Shown here piece by piece: positions 26,577 to 32,822 of a DNA stretch of 64,000 nucleotides. Position 1 is the first letter of the stretch; each line of letters starts with the position of its first letter. The notes under the pieces were generated by a model, which searched no databases, had not been told where the DNA came from, and was given only the letters and a program-made list of their open reading frames with translations. Made by a program: the position numbers and the translations under genes. Source of the stretch: Fischerella sp. CENA71 (lineage in GTDB: Bacteria; Cyanobacteriota; Cyanobacteriia; Cyanobacteriales; Nostocaceae); NCBI GenBank assembly GCA_024239075.1, contig JANBVI010000029.1, positions 1 to 64,000 of the forward strand, read 5' to 3'.

Positions 26577-27032
26577 ATGCTAGACTTTAAGTACTCCTCA
26601 GTAATTAATGCACCTGTAGAGGTTGTGTGGCGATTTCATGAAAGACCGGATGTTTTACAAATGCTAACTCCACCTTGGCAACCCATGCAAGTCATGCGTC
26701 GCGAAGGAGGGTTGGGTGTGGGTGCTGTCACGGAATTTCGCCTGTTTTTGGGGCCATTACCTTTACGTTGGTTGGCGCGTCATACCGAATACGAAGAATA
26801 TCATTTGTTTACCGATGAACAAATATCCGGCCCCTTTGAGTATTGGGTACACCGACATCTATTTGAACCCGAAAATGGTAAAACTAGGTTGACTGATGAA
26901 ATTTCTTTTTCTTTACCTGGTGGATCTCCAGTCGAATTTTTGGGTGGTTGGTTAGTCAATGTGCAACTAGAAGCAATGTTTCGTTATCGCCATCACATTA
27001 CTCAACGCGAATGTGAGTCATTAAGGATTTAA
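26577..27032 (+). CDS. SRPBCC (START-like) family protein
   Basis: A 151-residue ligand-binding-fold protein: FKYSSVINAPVEVVWRFHERPDVLQMLTPPW is the typical SRPBCC opening, and RLTDEISFSLPGG the central strand. ATG 26577 is preferred (GAGG with a 9-base spacer) over GTG 26556, which would overlap the upstream stop. Cyanobacterial members are related to cyclase/dehydrase-type proteins. The last 12 bases overlap, tail to tail, the end of the CHAT gene. Confidence 0.85.
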   Translation: MLDFKYSSVINAPVEVVWRFHERPDVLQMLTPPWQPMQVMRREGGLGVGAVTEFRLFLGPLPLRWLARHTEYEEYHLFTDEQISGPFEYWVHRHLFEPENGKTRLTDEISFSLPGGSPVEFLGGWLVNVQLEAMFRYRHHITQRECESLRI

Positions 27033-30000
27033 AGGAAAAAATTCATATTTATTAGTAGATGCACGGCTTGGTTGAATTTGGACTATGATAATATCATTTT
27101 TGTTTTGAATATAGCGATCGCCTGATTGTAAAAACTTGATTTTACCAGTTGCACCGTTAGCTGAAAAATTGAGATTACGCAAGACTTGTTGCAGTCCATC
27201 GCGAGTTTTCTTTTGCTGTAAACCTTTAATAATGGCTACAGTTGCATCGTAACTTGTAGCAGAGCGCCAAGTAACTAAGCTACTCCAAAGTTTCTGAGAG
27301 TTTTTACTAAATTCACTCCCCATATTACTTCTAATTTCCCAAGGGACAGCTAATACTAAATCATTAACATCAGCTTGTCCTTTTTGTATAGTTTGTAAAG
27401 TGTATAGTGAAGTACTGGAAAATAATTTGAGTTTGCCTTTATTGGCTTTGGCTAAATCTAAAGCTTTACTAATTCTATCTATATGGGGAGCTAAAAATAA
27501 ACCAGTAGCACCATGACTAATTGCATCTGAAATAATTTTTTTAGGATCAAAATCTGGTGCAGAGAAATCACATTTGATATTCACAATACTTCCACCGTCA
27601 GCGATGGCAGAAGAAGTAAATTCATCGCGAAAAGATTGATTATCTATCGCTTTTTCATCTACACAAATCGCCAAATTTTTGACACGAGCAAAATTAATAG
27701 CATAGTGAGCCACAGAATCAGCTAAAAAACGCAGATTTGGAGAAGTGCGAAATATATAAGAACCACATCCCGATAATTTGAGCGAAAAGCTAGTAGGAGA
27801 AATATTAACTAATTTCCCTTCTTCGTAAATTACACAGGCTGCGACAGAAGCATCAGATGCATTATGGCCAATCACTGCTAAAATTTGCTTGTTTTTGACA
27901 AAAAATTTCGCTATTTGTTTAGAAATATCAGGATCATTATCATCATTAGCTATTTCTACTTGTAACAAATATCCTTGAATACCACCTTTATTATTAACTT
28001 CATCTTGCGCTTGAGCCACACCTTGCAGTATTTCTTTAGCAACATTGATATTGCTACCAATCGGAACACTAACAGCTATTTTTAAAACTTTGCCATGACG
28101 AGCAGCAAGAGCATTTTGTAAGTATATGCGTGTTTCGGGGTCATTGGGGATTGTTTGCAGAGATTTTTGAAATGATGCGATCGCTTGCTCATAATTTTCT
28201 GTCGCAAAAGCTTCTACACCTGCTTTTTTCTCGCTACTGAGATGATCTTTAACTAATATTTTATCCCCGAAGCTGAGGCGATTAAAAATAGAGTCTTTGA
28301 GTACAAATTTGTAGTGACTCGCATTGTCGGGATCAGGTTTGACTTCCACCAACACCGCTGTACCGATGCGATCGCCCCAAGGTGAAAATTGAATAGTTCC
28401 CGTAGCGCCTTCTAAAGAAAAACTATTAGATAAAGCTTCTTGGATGCCATCTCTGGTGTTATGATTTTCATTCTGCATGAATGCTTCGGCAATCGTGTTG
28501 GCAGCATCATAAGCATTTGCTGTGCGCCAAGTAATAGATTCTGGATTATGCCATAATTTATAGGCATCTTTGACAAAGTTTTTATTAGCAGAAGCATCGG
28601 CGTGCCAAGGAACAGCCATCACTAAACCGTTGACAGCTTTACCAGCCATCAAAGTTTTTTTAGTTTGCATACTGGGATTGCCAAATAGCATAAATTGGCC
28701 TTTGTTGGCTTTAGCAACTTTTATAGCTTGATCAATTCTGTCAACATGGGGATTGAGAAATATGCTATCAGCTTTTTTTTCTTTAGCACGTTTAATGGCA
28801 AGTTTTGGCTGAAAATTTTTGGCTGCTAAATCGCAGTGAATATCAATTAATTGAGTGTTATTTTTGGCTAGTGCTGAAGCTATTGCAGGTTCATAAGACT
28901 GATCTTTTGCTTGAGAATCACGACAGATAGCAATGCGAGTTTTGCCTTCTTTTTTTGTATAATCAGCTAAAGTTTCAGCCATCACATCATTTCTAATTAC
29001 AGTTCTGTAAATATAGCTACCCTCACTACGATTTTGGGGATCAGTTACTAATGGAGAAGAACTAGTGGGTGAAATCATCACTAATTTTCCATCTTGGTAA
29101 ATTTTAGAAGCAGGCACGCTAGCATCACTACTATTGTGTCCAATTACTGCTAAGATATTTTGATCTTGTATAAATTTATAGGCAACTCTTTCAGCAACAG
29201 CAGGATTATTATCATCATTGACGATTTCTAACTTTAATAATTTGCCATTAATACCACCTTGACGGTTAATTTCATCTTGATATTGTGCTACCCCTCGTAA
29301 AATTTCTTGGGCAACATCAGGATTTGTACCAATCGGAACTGCAACCCCTATCGTTAATGCTGCTTGCTCGCCAATCTTGGCATTATTCAGATATATTAAC
29401 GATTCTGGATCATTAGGTTGAATTTGCAAAGATTTTTGAAATTTCTCAAATGCTTGATGATAATTTCTACCTGAAAATGCTTGTACACCTTGCTTTTTTA
29501 ATTCCGTTTCTACTGTTTTGACTAAAATTTTATTGCCATCACTAAAACGATTATGGAAGTTAATTTCATCAATACCACGCCATAAAGCTGCACCAATACA
29601 CCCCAGCGAAACTGTCGTAATAGCTGCGCGTAAAGCCTTTTGTTTCCAATTGAGAATTCGGGGATATTTGAGTTCTCTTGCAGCTGGATTCTGAAAAATT
29701 ACAGGTAGCCAAGAAGCACAAGGATAGTCTCTTTCCCACTCTTCATGTAAGCGTTCTCGCGCTTGGTTTACAGATGTATATAAAGATTCACCGTTAGTAA
29801 ATGCTGTGAGAAAATATTTTAAAAACTCTTGAGCAATAACATCAGGCACAGGTTCCCGCATGACAATTGTATAGGGAATGCGTAAATTAGCTAAATTACG
29901 GGCTAATCCTAGTCCGTCACAAGAGTTAAAAATAGCTAATTTTAATCCTTTTCTCACAGCATATCGGAGAGAGTAACGCAAGTTTTGTAATGATAAATAA

Positions 30001-30734
30001 CTCTCATTATCATTGATTTTAATTTTTCCTCCAGCATCACCTTCTTGACTTATACTATGTCCCGCAAAAAATAAAATATCCCAAGATTCCGTTCTGAGAT
30101 TTTTAATAAGTTTCTGGCGTGTGGGTTCTATTAAGTCTTCAACTTTTGCACCTGGTAAATTTTTGAGAGAATCTAAATCTTGTTGAAGATCAATTCCTTC
30201 ACTACTACCTAAAATTGCCAAAATCTTGACTGGTATTTTCAGGTGCTTTGTCGATGGTTCGTATTCTGAACTAATTACTATTTCAGCTTGGGGATGGCTA
30301 GTAGAGAAAAAACCCCATAAATGCCAAGGTAATCTTTGCAGCAATGAATCCTGAGTCTGTAAAATAAAGCGAACATCTTCATAATTACCAATTTGTTTTG
30401 ATAATTGTCGTTCTACTTCTAAAACAGATGCTTGATTTAACCAGTTGTTGAAAGTATCTTGAAATTTTTGAGCTGCTTGATTACAAGCATCTTTACTAGA
30501 GAAGTTTGTAATCTGGTTTTTCGGGATAATTATTAACCAATTTGCTGGTAATTTCTCATAAATAGATTGCCATGCAGTGTATGTTGTCGGAACATCTGGT
30601 GCAGGTGGTAATCTACCAGAAATCTCAGCAATATGAGGCTTCCCAGATTCACCAATTCTCACTTTGATAGGAAATCCCTTCTCAAAAGAACCCTCCCCGA
30701 TTTCAAAAATGATTAATTTAACCCGCTTCACCAC
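27021..30734 (-). CDS. CHAT caspase-like protease fused through one TM helix to two TPR + LivJ-like ligand-binding modules
   Basis: About 1237 residues. N-terminal CHAT domain (to ~355) with catalytic His in ILFFAGHSIS (H226) and Cys in AIFNSCDGLGLA (C272). One hydrophobic helix follows (ALRAAITTVSLGCIGAALW, ~366-386), preceded by RILNWKQK, so the protease side is predicted cytoplasmic. The exterior part is a tandem duplication: a TPR-like unit (FQKSLQIQPNDPESLIYLNNA, ~397-457) plus a type-1 periplasmic-binding domain (~460-804), then a second TPR-like unit (FQKSLQTIPNDPETRIYLQNA, ~818-880) plus a second such domain (~883-1237). Both binding domains keep SSDASV/ASDASV and ISPTS motifs of LivJ-type proteins. 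GTG 30734 is chosen because AAGGAG lies 8 bases upstream; a TTG exists at 30758. Last gene of a sigma-DUF1822-CHAT set. Receptor-protease role is inferred. Confidence 0.88.
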   Translation of the reverse strand: MVKRVKLIIFEIGEGSFEKGFPIKVRIGESGKPHIAEISGRLPPAPDVPTTYTAWQSIYEKLPANWLIIIPKNQITNFSSKDACNQAAQKFQDTFNNWLNQASVLEVERQLSKQIGNYEDVRFILQTQDSLLQRLPWHLWGFFSTSHPQAEIVISSEYEPSTKHLKIPVKILAILGSSEGIDLQQDLDSLKNLPGAKVEDLIEPTRQKLIKNLRTESWDILFFAGHSISQEGDAGGKIKINDNESYLSLQNLRYSLRYAVRKGLKLAIFNSCDGLGLARNLANLRIPYTIVMREPVPDVIAQEFLKYFLTAFTNGESLYTSVNQARERLHEEWERDYPCASWLPVIFQNPAARELKYPRILNWKQKALRAAITTVSLGCIGAALWRGIDEINFHNRFSDGNKILVKTVETELKKQGVQAFSGRNYHQAFEKFQKSLQIQPNDPESLIYLNNAKIGEQAALTIGVAVPIGTNPDVAQEILRGVAQYQDEINRQGGINGKLLKLEIVNDDNNPAVAERVAYKFIQDQNILAVIGHNSSDASVPASKIYQDGKLVMISPTSSSPLVTDPQNRSEGSYIYRTVIRNDVMAETLADYTKKEGKTRIAICRDSQAKDQSYEPAIASALAKNNTQLIDIHCDLAAKNFQPKLAIKRAKEKKADSIFLNPHVDRIDQAIKVAKANKGQFMLFGNPSMQTKKTLMAGKAVNGLVMAVPWHADASANKNFVKDAYKLWHNPESITWRTANAYDAANTIAEAFMQNENHNTRDGIQEALSNSFSLEGATGTIQFSPWGDRIGTAVLVEVKPDPDNASHYKFVLKDSIFNRLSFGDKILVKDHLSSEKKAGVEAFATENYEQAIASFQKSLQTIPNDPETRIYLQNALAARHGKVLKIAVSVPIGSNINVAKEILQGVAQAQDEVNNKGGIQGYLLQVEIANDDNDPDISKQIAKFFVKNKQILAVIGHNASDASVAACVIYEEGKLVNISPTSFSLKLSGCGSYIFRTSPNLRFLADSVAHYAINFARVKNLAICVDEKAIDNQSFRDEFTSSAIADGGSIVNIKCDFSAPDFDPKKIISDAISHGATGLFLAPHIDRISKALDLAKANKGKLKLFSSTSLYTLQTIQKGQADVNDLVLAVPWEIRSNMGSEFSKNSQKLWSSLVTWRSATSYDATVAIIKGLQQKKTRDGLQQVLRNLNFSANGATGKIKFLQSGDRYIQNKNDIIIVQIQPSRASTNKYEFFPLNP

Positions 30735-30817: not shown

Positions 30818-31975
30818 CTAAATCACAAAATTTTCTGTTACTACTGCATCATTTAAACCAACTCTAACTTGGAATCTTTCCCCAAATTCCGCACAAAACT
30901 TTAATTGAATATAATCATCCTCTTCTCTAGCTTTAACTTCTAAAAATGGTTGTCCATTATCGTATAATCCTGCTAATTGTAAACCTGATGGTAAATAAGC
31001 ATGATTCATCGGATAAACCCGCAATAACACAGCGATTGTTTGATCTGGTTTAGATAAAACCGCTACCATTAAGGCTACAGGATTACCATCTAACTGCATT
31101 CCTAAATCCATGATGCGTCTAGCACTCACCGCAGGATGATTAGGTTTTAGAGTCCACAAAATTTCTGCAAGAGTCCAACGTGTTTCTTCATCTTCAGTAG
31201 TTTGAATTAAATGAACCAAAATATCTAGAAGTTCGGATGAAGTATGACTATTATTATTATTCTCAATATTTTCACGACGATTGTTGAACTTTTTTGACAA
31301 AAATTTAGTTGGTAAACATTTTTGCCAACTATGATTAGGGTATAATTGCTCGATAATTTGCCAGATAATATCGGGTGATTCTAATTTCAATCCTCTGACA
31401 CGTTTAATAGAACGGAAAGCAAACTGAGGTTTGATTTTACTCGTGAATTCTTCAACAGTTTGCCACTCAGTTGTGTAAATATTTTCCAGCCACGATCGCA
31501 AAGAAACTAAATGCGATCGCTCAATTAATTCATCTAATGGCTGTAGCTGATTAAGATCAATTTCTGTTGCTGTGACATGAGGTAAAAATCCCCAAATCTT
31601 ACCCTCTTTGCAGGTTTGATTAATTTCAACAACCACATAACCAATGCGATCATCCCAAACCTCAGGCGGAATTTCACAAATGCGATCGCCTGTGCGAATC
31701 GCTCGACATTCCAAATGTCCTACCCCAGTCAACACCAAATCAGCAACATTATCAATTAACCTTCTATAAGGATTCCAACTATAACTAGATGCTAAATCTG
31801 TAGGAATATCTAGCATGTGCAAATAAGTATTAACTACCTGCACAGCTAAAGTATTTAAATAGACTTGTTTGGCTTTTGATTGTGTTGGTTGTTCCCTGGC
31901 AAATCTGAGGGCATTTTCTCGGAATTCTTCCGAAATCGGAATAGATATGGTTTGATGTTCGATTATGTAATTCAT
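30818..31975 (-). CDS. DUF1822 family protein
   Basis: A 385-residue protein opening ISIPISEEFRENALRFAREQ, with the conserved region AKQVYLNTLAVQVVNTYLHML and a beta-rich C-terminal domain (PSGLQLAGLYDNGQPFLEVKAREEDDYIQLKF). This is the DUF1822 pattern, known mainly from cyanobacteria. ATG 31975 is preferred to TTG 31996. It lies 27 bases after the sigma-factor-like gene and 83 bases before the CHAT gene on the same strand, which suggests an operon. Biochemical role unknown. Confidence 0.85.
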   Translation of the reverse strand: MNYIIEHQTISIPISEEFRENALRFAREQPTQSKAKQVYLNTLAVQVVNTYLHMLDIPTDLASSYSWNPYRRLIDNVADLVLTGVGHLECRAIRTGDRICEIPPEVWDDRIGYVVVEINQTCKEGKIWGFLPHVTATEIDLNQLQPLDELIERSHLVSLRSWLENIYTTEWQTVEEFTSKIKPQFAFRSIKRVRGLKLESPDIIWQIIEQLYPNHSWQKCLPTKFLSKKFNNRRENIENNNNSHTSSELLDILVHLIQTTEDEETRWTLAEILWTLKPNHPAVSARRIMDLGMQLDGNPVALMVAVLSKPDQTIAVLLRVYPMNHAYLPSGLQLAGLYDNGQPFLEVKAREEDDYIQLKFCAEFGERFQVRVGLNDAVVTENFVI

Positions 31976-32002
31976 AGTTGTAGATTTCAACTTCAAATAC
32001 AG

Positions 32003-32650
32003 TTAATCAAGATAACCTTGGGATTTACAAAACTCTTCCAAAATTGGAAGACATTTTCTTTGGTAGAAACCACTGACAGTGGTAATAGATACATCAAAAT
32101 CTTGAGATATATCTTTCCAAGCAATTTCTAAAATAAAACGGCGTTCAATCAAAACTTGACAATTAATATCAGGGCGATCGCTAATATGAATCCGCTGTAA
32201 TTTCTTGGCTTCTGTTGTCAGCCATTCCTGAATATCTTTGATTAGGGGAGATGGTTCGGGTGGTGCGGGAATTAAACTTACCGGATCTATTTCTTCGCCA
32301 TTTTCTCCGATTACAGGAGAAATGGTTTTTATCCGAGTTTCTTGTCTGCTGCGGTAAATATCCTTCAGGCGATACTTCAAGTAAATATTTAACCAGCATG
32401 TCACACAACCTTTATTTGGATTGTAAGCTTCTTTAGCAGTTGTGGCTTCACAGAGATTTTGACAGAAATATATCCAAGTTTGCTGCAAAGCTTCCTCAGC
32501 ATCAGATACAGCAATAGTTGGCGATAATTTACCCGACTTTTGAATCAGATAAATAATTTTATTTAATTTCCTTTTGCGTTCTAAACTACCCCTCGGATGT
32601 TGACAAGCATCTTGAACAAGTTGGAGGATTTGCGCTTTGAATTCATCCAT
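32003..32650 (-). CDS. ECF-like sigma-70 family protein
   Basis: A 215-residue protein with a sigma region-2-like segment (EEALQQTWIYFCQNLCEA ... GCVTCWLNIYLKYRLKDIYR, ~48-100) and a C-terminal region-4-like helix-turn-helix (LEIAWKDISQDFDVSITTVSGFYQRKCLPILEEF, ~173-205). The intervening linker is Pro-rich. The pattern fits cyanobacterial 'sigma-70-like' proteins next to DUF1822/CHAT genes. Whether it works as a true sigma factor or as an adaptor is not decided by sequence. First gene of the three-gene set. Confidence 0.75.
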   Translation of the reverse strand: MDEFKAQILQLVQDACQHPRGSLERKRKLNKIIYLIQKSGKLSPTIAVSDAEEALQQTWIYFCQNLCEATTAKEAYNPNKGCVTCWLNIYLKYRLKDIYRSRQETRIKTISPVIGENGEEIDPVSLIPAPPEPSPLIKDIQEWLTTEAKKLQRIHISDRPDINCQVLIERRFILEIAWKDISQDFDVSITTVSGFYQRKCLPILEEFCKSQGYLD

Positions 32651-32822
32651 ACTGTAAAGAATTAATTAACTTTTAACAGTCTTAGCTCAACCTACTGCTA
32701 CAGTTTATAGGGGCGTTTATCCAGATTTGATTTCACTTCCGTAATCAGAATTTTTCCAAAACTCCCAAGGGGACTGTAATACCAGCAATTACCAAAATTA
32801 AATTCTTCATAAATCTTCCAAC

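Follow-up and report, generated by a model that had tools for sequence, protein, structure and literature searches.

What does a cyanobacterial membrane protein do when a caspase-fold protease lies on one side of its membrane helix and a pair of solute-binding modules on the other? The question is raised by a stretch of 64,000 nucleotides from Fischerella sp. CENA71 (positions 1 to 64,000 of contig JANBVI010000029.1, hereafter the window), in which an open frame at 27021-30734 of the minus strand, with a GTG start at 30734 and its stop at 27021, encodes a product of 1237 amino acids (aa). Bacterial membrane receptors usually answer through a kinase, a cyclase or a stepwise intramembrane-proteolysis cascade. 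Here the receptor is apparently the caspase-fold protease itself, encoded together with a sigma factor, and its family is present in two thirds of the cyanobacterial genomes searched. We tentatively favor, with a probability of roughly 45%, a one-protein membrane-spanning receptor-protease that would regulate this sigma factor through cleavage of the neighboring DUF1822 protein by its CHAT domain.

Architecture of the receptor-protease

The protein was divided as follows (TM, transmembrane helix; TPR, tetratricopeptide repeat; PBP, periplasmic-binding protein; AF2, AlphaFold2).

27021 to 30734, minus strand: EACC2-CHAT-TM-(TPR-PBP)x2 receptor-protease, 1237 aa
30255 to 30734, minus strand: residues 1-160, N-terminal alpha+beta half, taken to be "EACC2" (predicted model; name from PMC8195603)
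29679 to 30254, minus strand: residues 161-352, predicted CHAT protease domain (PF12770 at 196-342, and fold match)
30057 to 30059, minus strand: His226, predicted catalytic, invariant in relatives
29919 to 29921, minus strand: Cys272, predicted catalytic, invariant in relatives
29580 to 29636, minus strand: residues 367-385, predicted membrane helix, positive side towards the protease (hydropathy, AF2, relatives)
29370 to 29528, minus strand: residues 403-455, TPR-like segment 1 (weak Pfam match, SHNi-TPR 424-439)
28299 to 29369, minus strand: residues 456-812, type-I periplasmic-binding module 1 (PF13458)
28104 to 28268, minus strand: residues 823-877, TPR-like segment 2 (TPR_2 839-865, 7.9e-6)
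27024 to 28103, minus strand: residues 878-1237, type-I periplasmic-binding module 2 (PF13458)

The CHAT match had an E value of 2.5e-11 (44 bits against a Pfam cut-off of 24). The alpha+beta half, which directly precedes the caspase domain in the AF2 model, is common to 59 aligned EACC2-CHAT rows, and its name follows published usage rather than a match to an EACC2 profile. The predicted fold of this half together with CHAT matched separase and Csx29, a fold of the caspase clan, and in the model the N-terminal half is the first half of a separase/Csx29-type CHAT. With a profile score above the cut-off, a His-Cys dyad and a caspase-clan fold, the protein is classed as a CHAT protease (PF12770) of predicted activity. 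Towards the C-terminus, Peripla_BP_6 (PF13458) matched in two stretches (E 3e-62, the best at 461-799). The TPR matches were weak, the best of them lying in the second copy, and TPR-like segment 1 was recovered in orthologues with a profile made from the window protein.

The putative catalytic residues lie in the motifs FFAGH (H226) and NSCDG (C272). As an original prediction made from the window sequence had claimed, they align with the CHAT dyad: neither residue varies among the genome's six EACC2-CHAT paralogues (6/6), among the aligned EACC2-CHAT rows (59/59) or among the distinct genes that combine CHAT with PBP modules (CHAT-PBP genes; 58/58), and their neighbors within the motifs are nearly invariant in both alignments. 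That the caspase fold acts as a signaling scaffold and is not used as a protease appears very improbable given this invariance.

The same prediction placed a single membrane helix, with its positive side towards the protease, at the linker. The Kyte-Doolittle mean of residues 367-385 is 1.46 over 19 residues, and one stretch inside the second PBP module reaches 1.54; taken alone, hydropathy in the window protein is marginal. Across the 58 CHAT-PBP genes the hydropathy peak of the linker averaged 2.11 and was at least 1.4 in 54, net positive charge was greater on the protease side in 50, and AF2 modeled residues 363-398 as one helix. The helix thus withstood comparison with its relatives, and the receptor-protease architecture as a whole is supported by the dyad, the membrane helix, the extracytoplasmic type of the binding modules and conservation.

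An upstream operon with DUF1822 and an ECF-type sigma factor

The best clue to the role of the protease, which the original prediction overlooked, is an operon upstream of it (ECF, extracytoplasmic function).

30818 to 31996, minus strand: DUF1822 protein, 392 aa, proposed sigma inhibitor and putative CHAT substrate (PF08852, E 6.5e-92)
32003 to 32650, minus strand: predicted ECF-type sigma factor gene, 215 aa (profile evidence from relatives)
32651 to 32757, minus strand: conserved stretch before the sigma gene, leader and probable SPFH remnant (L188, L192, L199, L235)

The DUF1822 protein was modeled by AF2 with a predicted local distance difference test score (pLDDT) of 86.8 and has a C-terminal, Ig-like beta-sandwich at about 293-392. 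Pfam found no TPR in any of 42 DUF1822 members, though PMC8195603 calls DUF1822 a TPR protein. The product of 32003-32650 is, judging from its relatives, an ECF-type sigma factor with regions 2 and 4. Among 35 aligned relatives, the NCBIfam sigma70-ECF profile (TIGR02937) matched nine (best 4.6e-7) and Pfam Sigma70_r2 four. Alignment with hhalign to five ECF-type sigma factors of the same genome gave an E value of 2.8e-6 over 174 columns covering regions 2 and 4, the other five pairings run giving 0.025 or worse, and RefSeq labels the equivalent gene of a Planktothrix plasmid "sigma-70 family". The leader of about 47 bases before the sigma gene is conserved in the four loci listed, and a sigma-70-type promoter scan there scored no better than shuffles.

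The association was followed in two samples. The general sample comprised 40 loci, one listed high-scoring EACC2-CHAT match from each of 40 genomes (in genome G313 not the best one), with 41 genes; 38 of these are directly preceded by DUF1822 on the same strand, the exceptions being L148, L151 and L162. The second sample comprised 62 loci fetched for the CHAT-PBP architecture, with the 58 distinct genes used above; from these, duplicates of a single record and genes interrupted by stops (L118, L206, L208, L216) had been removed. In 38 of the 58 DUF1822 lies immediately upstream, and in 31 one of the first three upstream genes matched a sigma profile. In 37 operons the tree distances of CHAT, DUF1822 and sigma correlated (rho 0.77, 0.69 and 0.69, with 0 of 1000 permutations as high), and the three genes look co-inherited, although species descent would raise rho too.

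Proposed mechanism and alternatives

In the mechanism that we propose, the two TPR-PBP modules, placed outside the cytoplasm by the architecture, would bind a small ligand. Closure or rearrangement of the modules would then, through the single helix, turn on the cytoplasmic CHAT domain, which would cut DUF1822. As suggested by the operon and by analogy with the Csx29-Csx30-CASP-sigma circuit, DUF1822 would normally keep the ECF-type sigma factor inactive, and the freed sigma factor would activate its regulon. The DUF1822 cleavage step is the weak link, resting on gene order and analogy, because DUF1822 showed no recognizable anti-sigma relative in the searches run. As a rather doubtful extension, a ligand-gated transmembrane CHAT protease might directly cleave DUF1822 as a new class of anti-sigma factor and free the ECF-type sigma factor throughout the cyanobacteria, with exchangeable sensors, possibly as a non-CRISPR counterpart of the Csx29-Csx30-sigma circuit. 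If CHAT does cut DUF1822 and free the sigma factor, a large family of unknown function would gain a function, the Csx29/Csx30 logic would have a non-CRISPR use, and a clean assay would exist for the role of a caspase-like protease in a multicellular bacterium.

Several results weigh against this mechanism. The window sigma protein alone gave no convincing family match in library searches, and the searches run with DUF1822 gave neither a sequence match nor a clear fold match to known anti-sigma factors or Csx30. Twenty of the 58 CHAT-PBP genes do not have DUF1822 next upstream, some of them lying at a contig end, standing second in a tandem pair or being arranged divergently, and in L115 (a double-PBP gene), L116, L130, L131, L212 and L217 neither partner lies beside the CHAT-PBP gene. 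No PspA or intact SPFH gene, of the kind found near some relatives (see below), adjoins the window operon. The distance correlation, with species descent left in, indicates co-inheritance at most, not contact. In the general sample, a sigma-like gene recognized by one of three profiles of our own was second upstream in only 29 of the 41 genes. As DUF1822 is the steadier neighbor, it may belong to CHAT more than to the sigma factor, and CHAT might instead cut the sigma factor itself or another target, with DUF1822 as an adaptor or chaperone and not an anti-sigma factor, in line with its lack of resemblance to any known anti-sigma factor in these searches. We consider this unlikely. Nothing speaks directly against it; the sigma-like profiles, built from one to four sequences each, miss divergent forms, such as a 382-aa gene in L128 with a Sigma70_r4 match at 2.8e-7.

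Selection on the protein bears on a different alternative. The ratio of nonsynonymous to synonymous substitution rates (dN/dS), computed pairwise against four close orthologues (two from Fischerella muscicola, one each from Pelatocladus and Westiellopsis), was 0.13-0.35 in residues 1-160, CHAT and both PBP modules, and 0.39-0.73 in the linker, the least conserved part. On these ratios the protease and both binding modules are under purifying selection. Kaur et al. (2021; PMC8195603), in a paper on counter-invader systems, propose autopeptidase activation for the class, and CHAT proteases and caspases are found in defense systems; on their reading, autoproteolysis would turn the protein on as the effector switch in a system for immunity or apoptosis-like death, and the sigma factor would serve as its transcriptional arm. 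We think this quite improbable: the juxtamembrane linker, a likely site of self-cutting, is the least conserved part, PADLOC (a library of systems described by 2023) gave no match for the three operon proteins, and a solute-binding ectodomain under purifying selection, together with the PspA and SPFH neighbors of some relatives, fits environmental sensing better.

The two binding modules and their ligand

Over 398 aligned residues the two TPR-PBP modules share 46% identity. In a quick tree of PBP modules, copy 1 grouped with copy 1 of L115 and of L118 and with L116 and L117, which have one module each (SH-like approximate likelihood ratio test, SH-aLRT, 99), and copy 2 with the second copy of L118 (SH-aLRT 99). 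The tandem pair described in the original prediction is present, but its duplication or fusion looks old, because in this tree copy 1 has nearer relatives than copy 2.

The best relatives of the modules in the Protein Data Bank (PDB) are LIVBP/LivJ-type proteins of the same type-I periplasmic-binding family (2liv, E 2.4e-19, for module 1; 4mlc, E 4.6e-13, for module 2). We take the ligand contacts of LIVBP to be S79, T102, Y150, Y202 and E226, and the majority of them are replaced in the CHAT-PBP modules. Of 67 modules, 64 have the serine of S79, the sole contact that most of them keep. The threonine of T102 is present in 17; the tyrosine of Y150 remains in 13, with D in 48, and that of Y202 in 10, with H in 32; the position of E226 holds P in 34, S in 14 and T in 8. 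In window copies 1 and 2 the five positions read S/S, S/F, D/D, H/H and P/T. The modules belong to Peripla_BP_6 but, across these five positions, do not carry the LIVBP residue set for branched-chain amino acids, which weakens the amino acid-like ligand suggested originally. Two cysteines are present in 55 and 59 of the 67 modules, which fits a putative disulfide outside the cytoplasm.

Distribution of the family and its sensors

In a sample of 388 genomes of the class, the EACC2-CHAT profile matched 257 at an E value of 1e-10 (at most five candidates were scored per genome, hence copies are undercounted) and DUF1822 matched 226 at 1e-20. The Fischerella genome holds six EACC2-CHAT paralogues, whose C-termini are of at least four kinds: TPR-PBPx2 in the window protein, CHASE2 by Pfam in two (contig C64), WD40 repeats by Pfam in one (contig C55), and two unassigned C-termini judged by eye to be multi-TM and helical. 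DUF1822 matched this genome in eight rows, two of which are fragments of a single gene; of the resulting seven genes, six lie near a CHAT gene. One of its 27 CHAT matches (G000:C63:123955-124743) has two in-frame stops inside the match, and a sigma-like gene 40% identical to that of the window (L053:5280-5933, contig C74) lies on a contig without a DUF1822 or CHAT match. Elsewhere, L258:3144-6359 encodes an EACC2-CHAT family protein with a long N-terminal pentapeptide-repeat region.

Profiles made from one or two sequences of the Fischerella genome labeled the C-termini of the 41 general-sample genes as CHASE2 in 38 and STAND-WD40 in two, with none assigned in one; among the matches listed, Pfam CHASE2 confirmed at least 22 of the 38, plus both genes of the Fischerella genome. 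A branch of the CHAT tree (support 99/98) sets apart 17 of the 21 PBP-type genes, including that of the window. The four outside it (L129, two in L132, and L133) imply repeated gain or loss of the sensor. The TPR-PBP sensor thus marks mainly one clade of the EACC2-CHAT class, the usual sensor in the sample being CHASE2.

The relative search yielded 79 loci, of which 43 were annotated and 41 counted. The closest named relatives, all from one group of branching cyanobacteria, are two of Fischerella muscicola, at 90% and 82%, one of Pelatocladus, at 89%, and one of Westiellopsis, at 88%. Two PBP modules were found in ten genes (window, L115, L188, L189, L190, L192, L193, L194, L199 and L235); L212, scored as two PBP stretches, has one split module and was not counted. 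In Calothrix sp. NIES-3974 the double CHAT-PBP gene is split by stops into two open frames (L118:5066-8817, L206:5001-8752). L132, L196, L207 and L211 carry a tandem CHAT-PBP pair behind a single DUF1822 gene, which looks as though two receptors shared a sigma unit. RefSeq names the relative at L272:4992-7418 (45% identical; Pfam CHAT 1.5e-15) "ABC transporter substrate-binding protein", so database annotation can hide the protease half of such proteins.

The suggestion that a protease here replaces a kinase found no support. In five extra loci no kinase was fused to TPR-PBP, a small sample in view of which such fusions may exist; a TPR-PBP gene lay beside a Ser/Thr kinase gene in two (L269, L270), and the commonest partner of the protease family in the general sample is CHASE2. 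At L269:3407-8205 (contig C4 of the Fischerella genome) a stand-alone TPR-PBP gene directly follows the kinase gene and is followed by a PBP_like_2 gene. L267:1539-4046 (genome G191) encodes a Peptidase_C14 classical caspase fused to a TPR-PBP module, and L268:1556-4309 has an AAA_35 domain in the place of Peptidase_C14.

Neighboring genes and possible output

PspA/IM30-like genes occurred in 13 of the 62 CHAT-PBP loci and an SPFH/flotillin pair directly before the sigma gene in five, against none in the 40 general, mostly CHASE2-type, loci for either; these counts compare 704,247 with 355,532 bases and include many near relatives, and are not independent. The SPFH/Band_7 pairs precede the sigma gene of double-PBP operons at L188:89-3088, L189:255-3010, L192:152-2937, L193:2-2850 and L235:3-2845. 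In the window, about 60 bases ahead of the leader (32698-32757) match the 3' end of the L188 SPFH/flotillin gene, so that the ancestor of the window operon probably had an SPFH gene. The window and L199 apparently keep only the 3' end of the second SPFH gene, the piece being longer in L199, and a TIGR04222 gene stands at the SPFH position in the window and, by sequence, in L199. PspA/IM30-like and stand-alone TPR-PBP genes were found together near CHAT-PBP in L123, L124, L125, L127, L128, L133, L218-L221, L224, L233 and L265, and also in L272:639-7418, DUF1822 being present in most such loci. On the Planktothrix plasmid sigma, DUF1822 and CHAT-PBP are preceded in the same row by PspA, TPR-PBP and a small gene. 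Phage-shock protein of Bacillus subtilis is tied to the membrane through an SPFH protein (PMC8581546). The neighbors of relatives and the SPFH remnant offer a circumstantial suggestion that the output may be protection of the envelope or membrane.

The genes flanking the operon between 22.5 and 41.1 kb encode an M16 peptidase, a radical SAM protein, a polyketide cyclase, the TIGR04222 protein, an SDR protein, a weak DnaJ match, ABC, FtsX and HlyD proteins, and one product without an assignment. Among these flanking genes no Cas gene or Cas7-11 was seen, the rest of the window not having been searched for Cas7-11.

Comparison with known systems

To our knowledge, separase and the SAVED-CHAT proteases carry neither a membrane helix nor a solute-binding module. 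HetF is a cyanobacterial CHAT protein, and identity of the window protein with it was rejected (NF045509, 14.8 bits against a cut-off of 1200). DdvA (PDB 8rot; PMC4374960) is a transmembrane anti-sigma factor with a caspase-fold domain and differs in being the anti-sigma factor itself.

The proposed functional analogy is with Craspase/CASP, in which Csx29 is a CHAT protease whose substrate, Csx30, inhibits an ECF-type sigma factor (PMC10028731). Both systems have a CHAT protease, with the fold match to Csx29, a neighboring ECF-type sigma factor and a neighboring inhibitor, a role that DUF1822 would presumably play here. Activation there is RNA-guided, with Cas7-11, and the searches run with DUF1822 gave no family or PDB sequence match, nor a clear fold match, to Csx30.

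In the EACC2-caspase systems of Kaur et al. (2021) the EACC2-caspase module stays constant while the C-terminus varies and may or may not have membrane helices and small-molecule-binding domains, and a gene for an ECF sigma factor and one for DUF1822 accompany them in the majority of TRADD-N-independent neighborhoods (PMC8195603). The window protein agrees in having an alpha+beta region before the caspase, a C-terminus of a variable kind, and neighboring sigma and DUF1822 genes. Their account of the class names CHASE2 and other domains, not a TPR plus Peripla_BP ectodomain, and Fig. 3H of the paper may draw one; it proposes autoproteolysis for the class, whereas cleavage of DUF1822 is proposed here. 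Earlier, single cyanobacterial metacaspase-ANF_receptor and metacaspase-CHASE2 proteins were described, with the receptor argued to lie outside and the protease inside, the topology argument being made for the CHASE2 case (PMC3501461). These, like L267, join a cytoplasmic caspase-fold protease to an extracytoplasmic receptor domain; they are single sequences with Peptidase_C14, whereas the window type has CHAT and a recurrent sigma/DUF1822 operon. Overall, the original prediction was supported in its receptor-protease architecture and not in its amino acid-like ligand or its replaced kinase, and it missed the operon and a class already published. With the class described in 2021 and a caspase-ANF_receptor fusion in 2012, the window protein is a variant within a described class, and this TPR-PBP variant is of interest chiefly since it makes a specific circuit testable.

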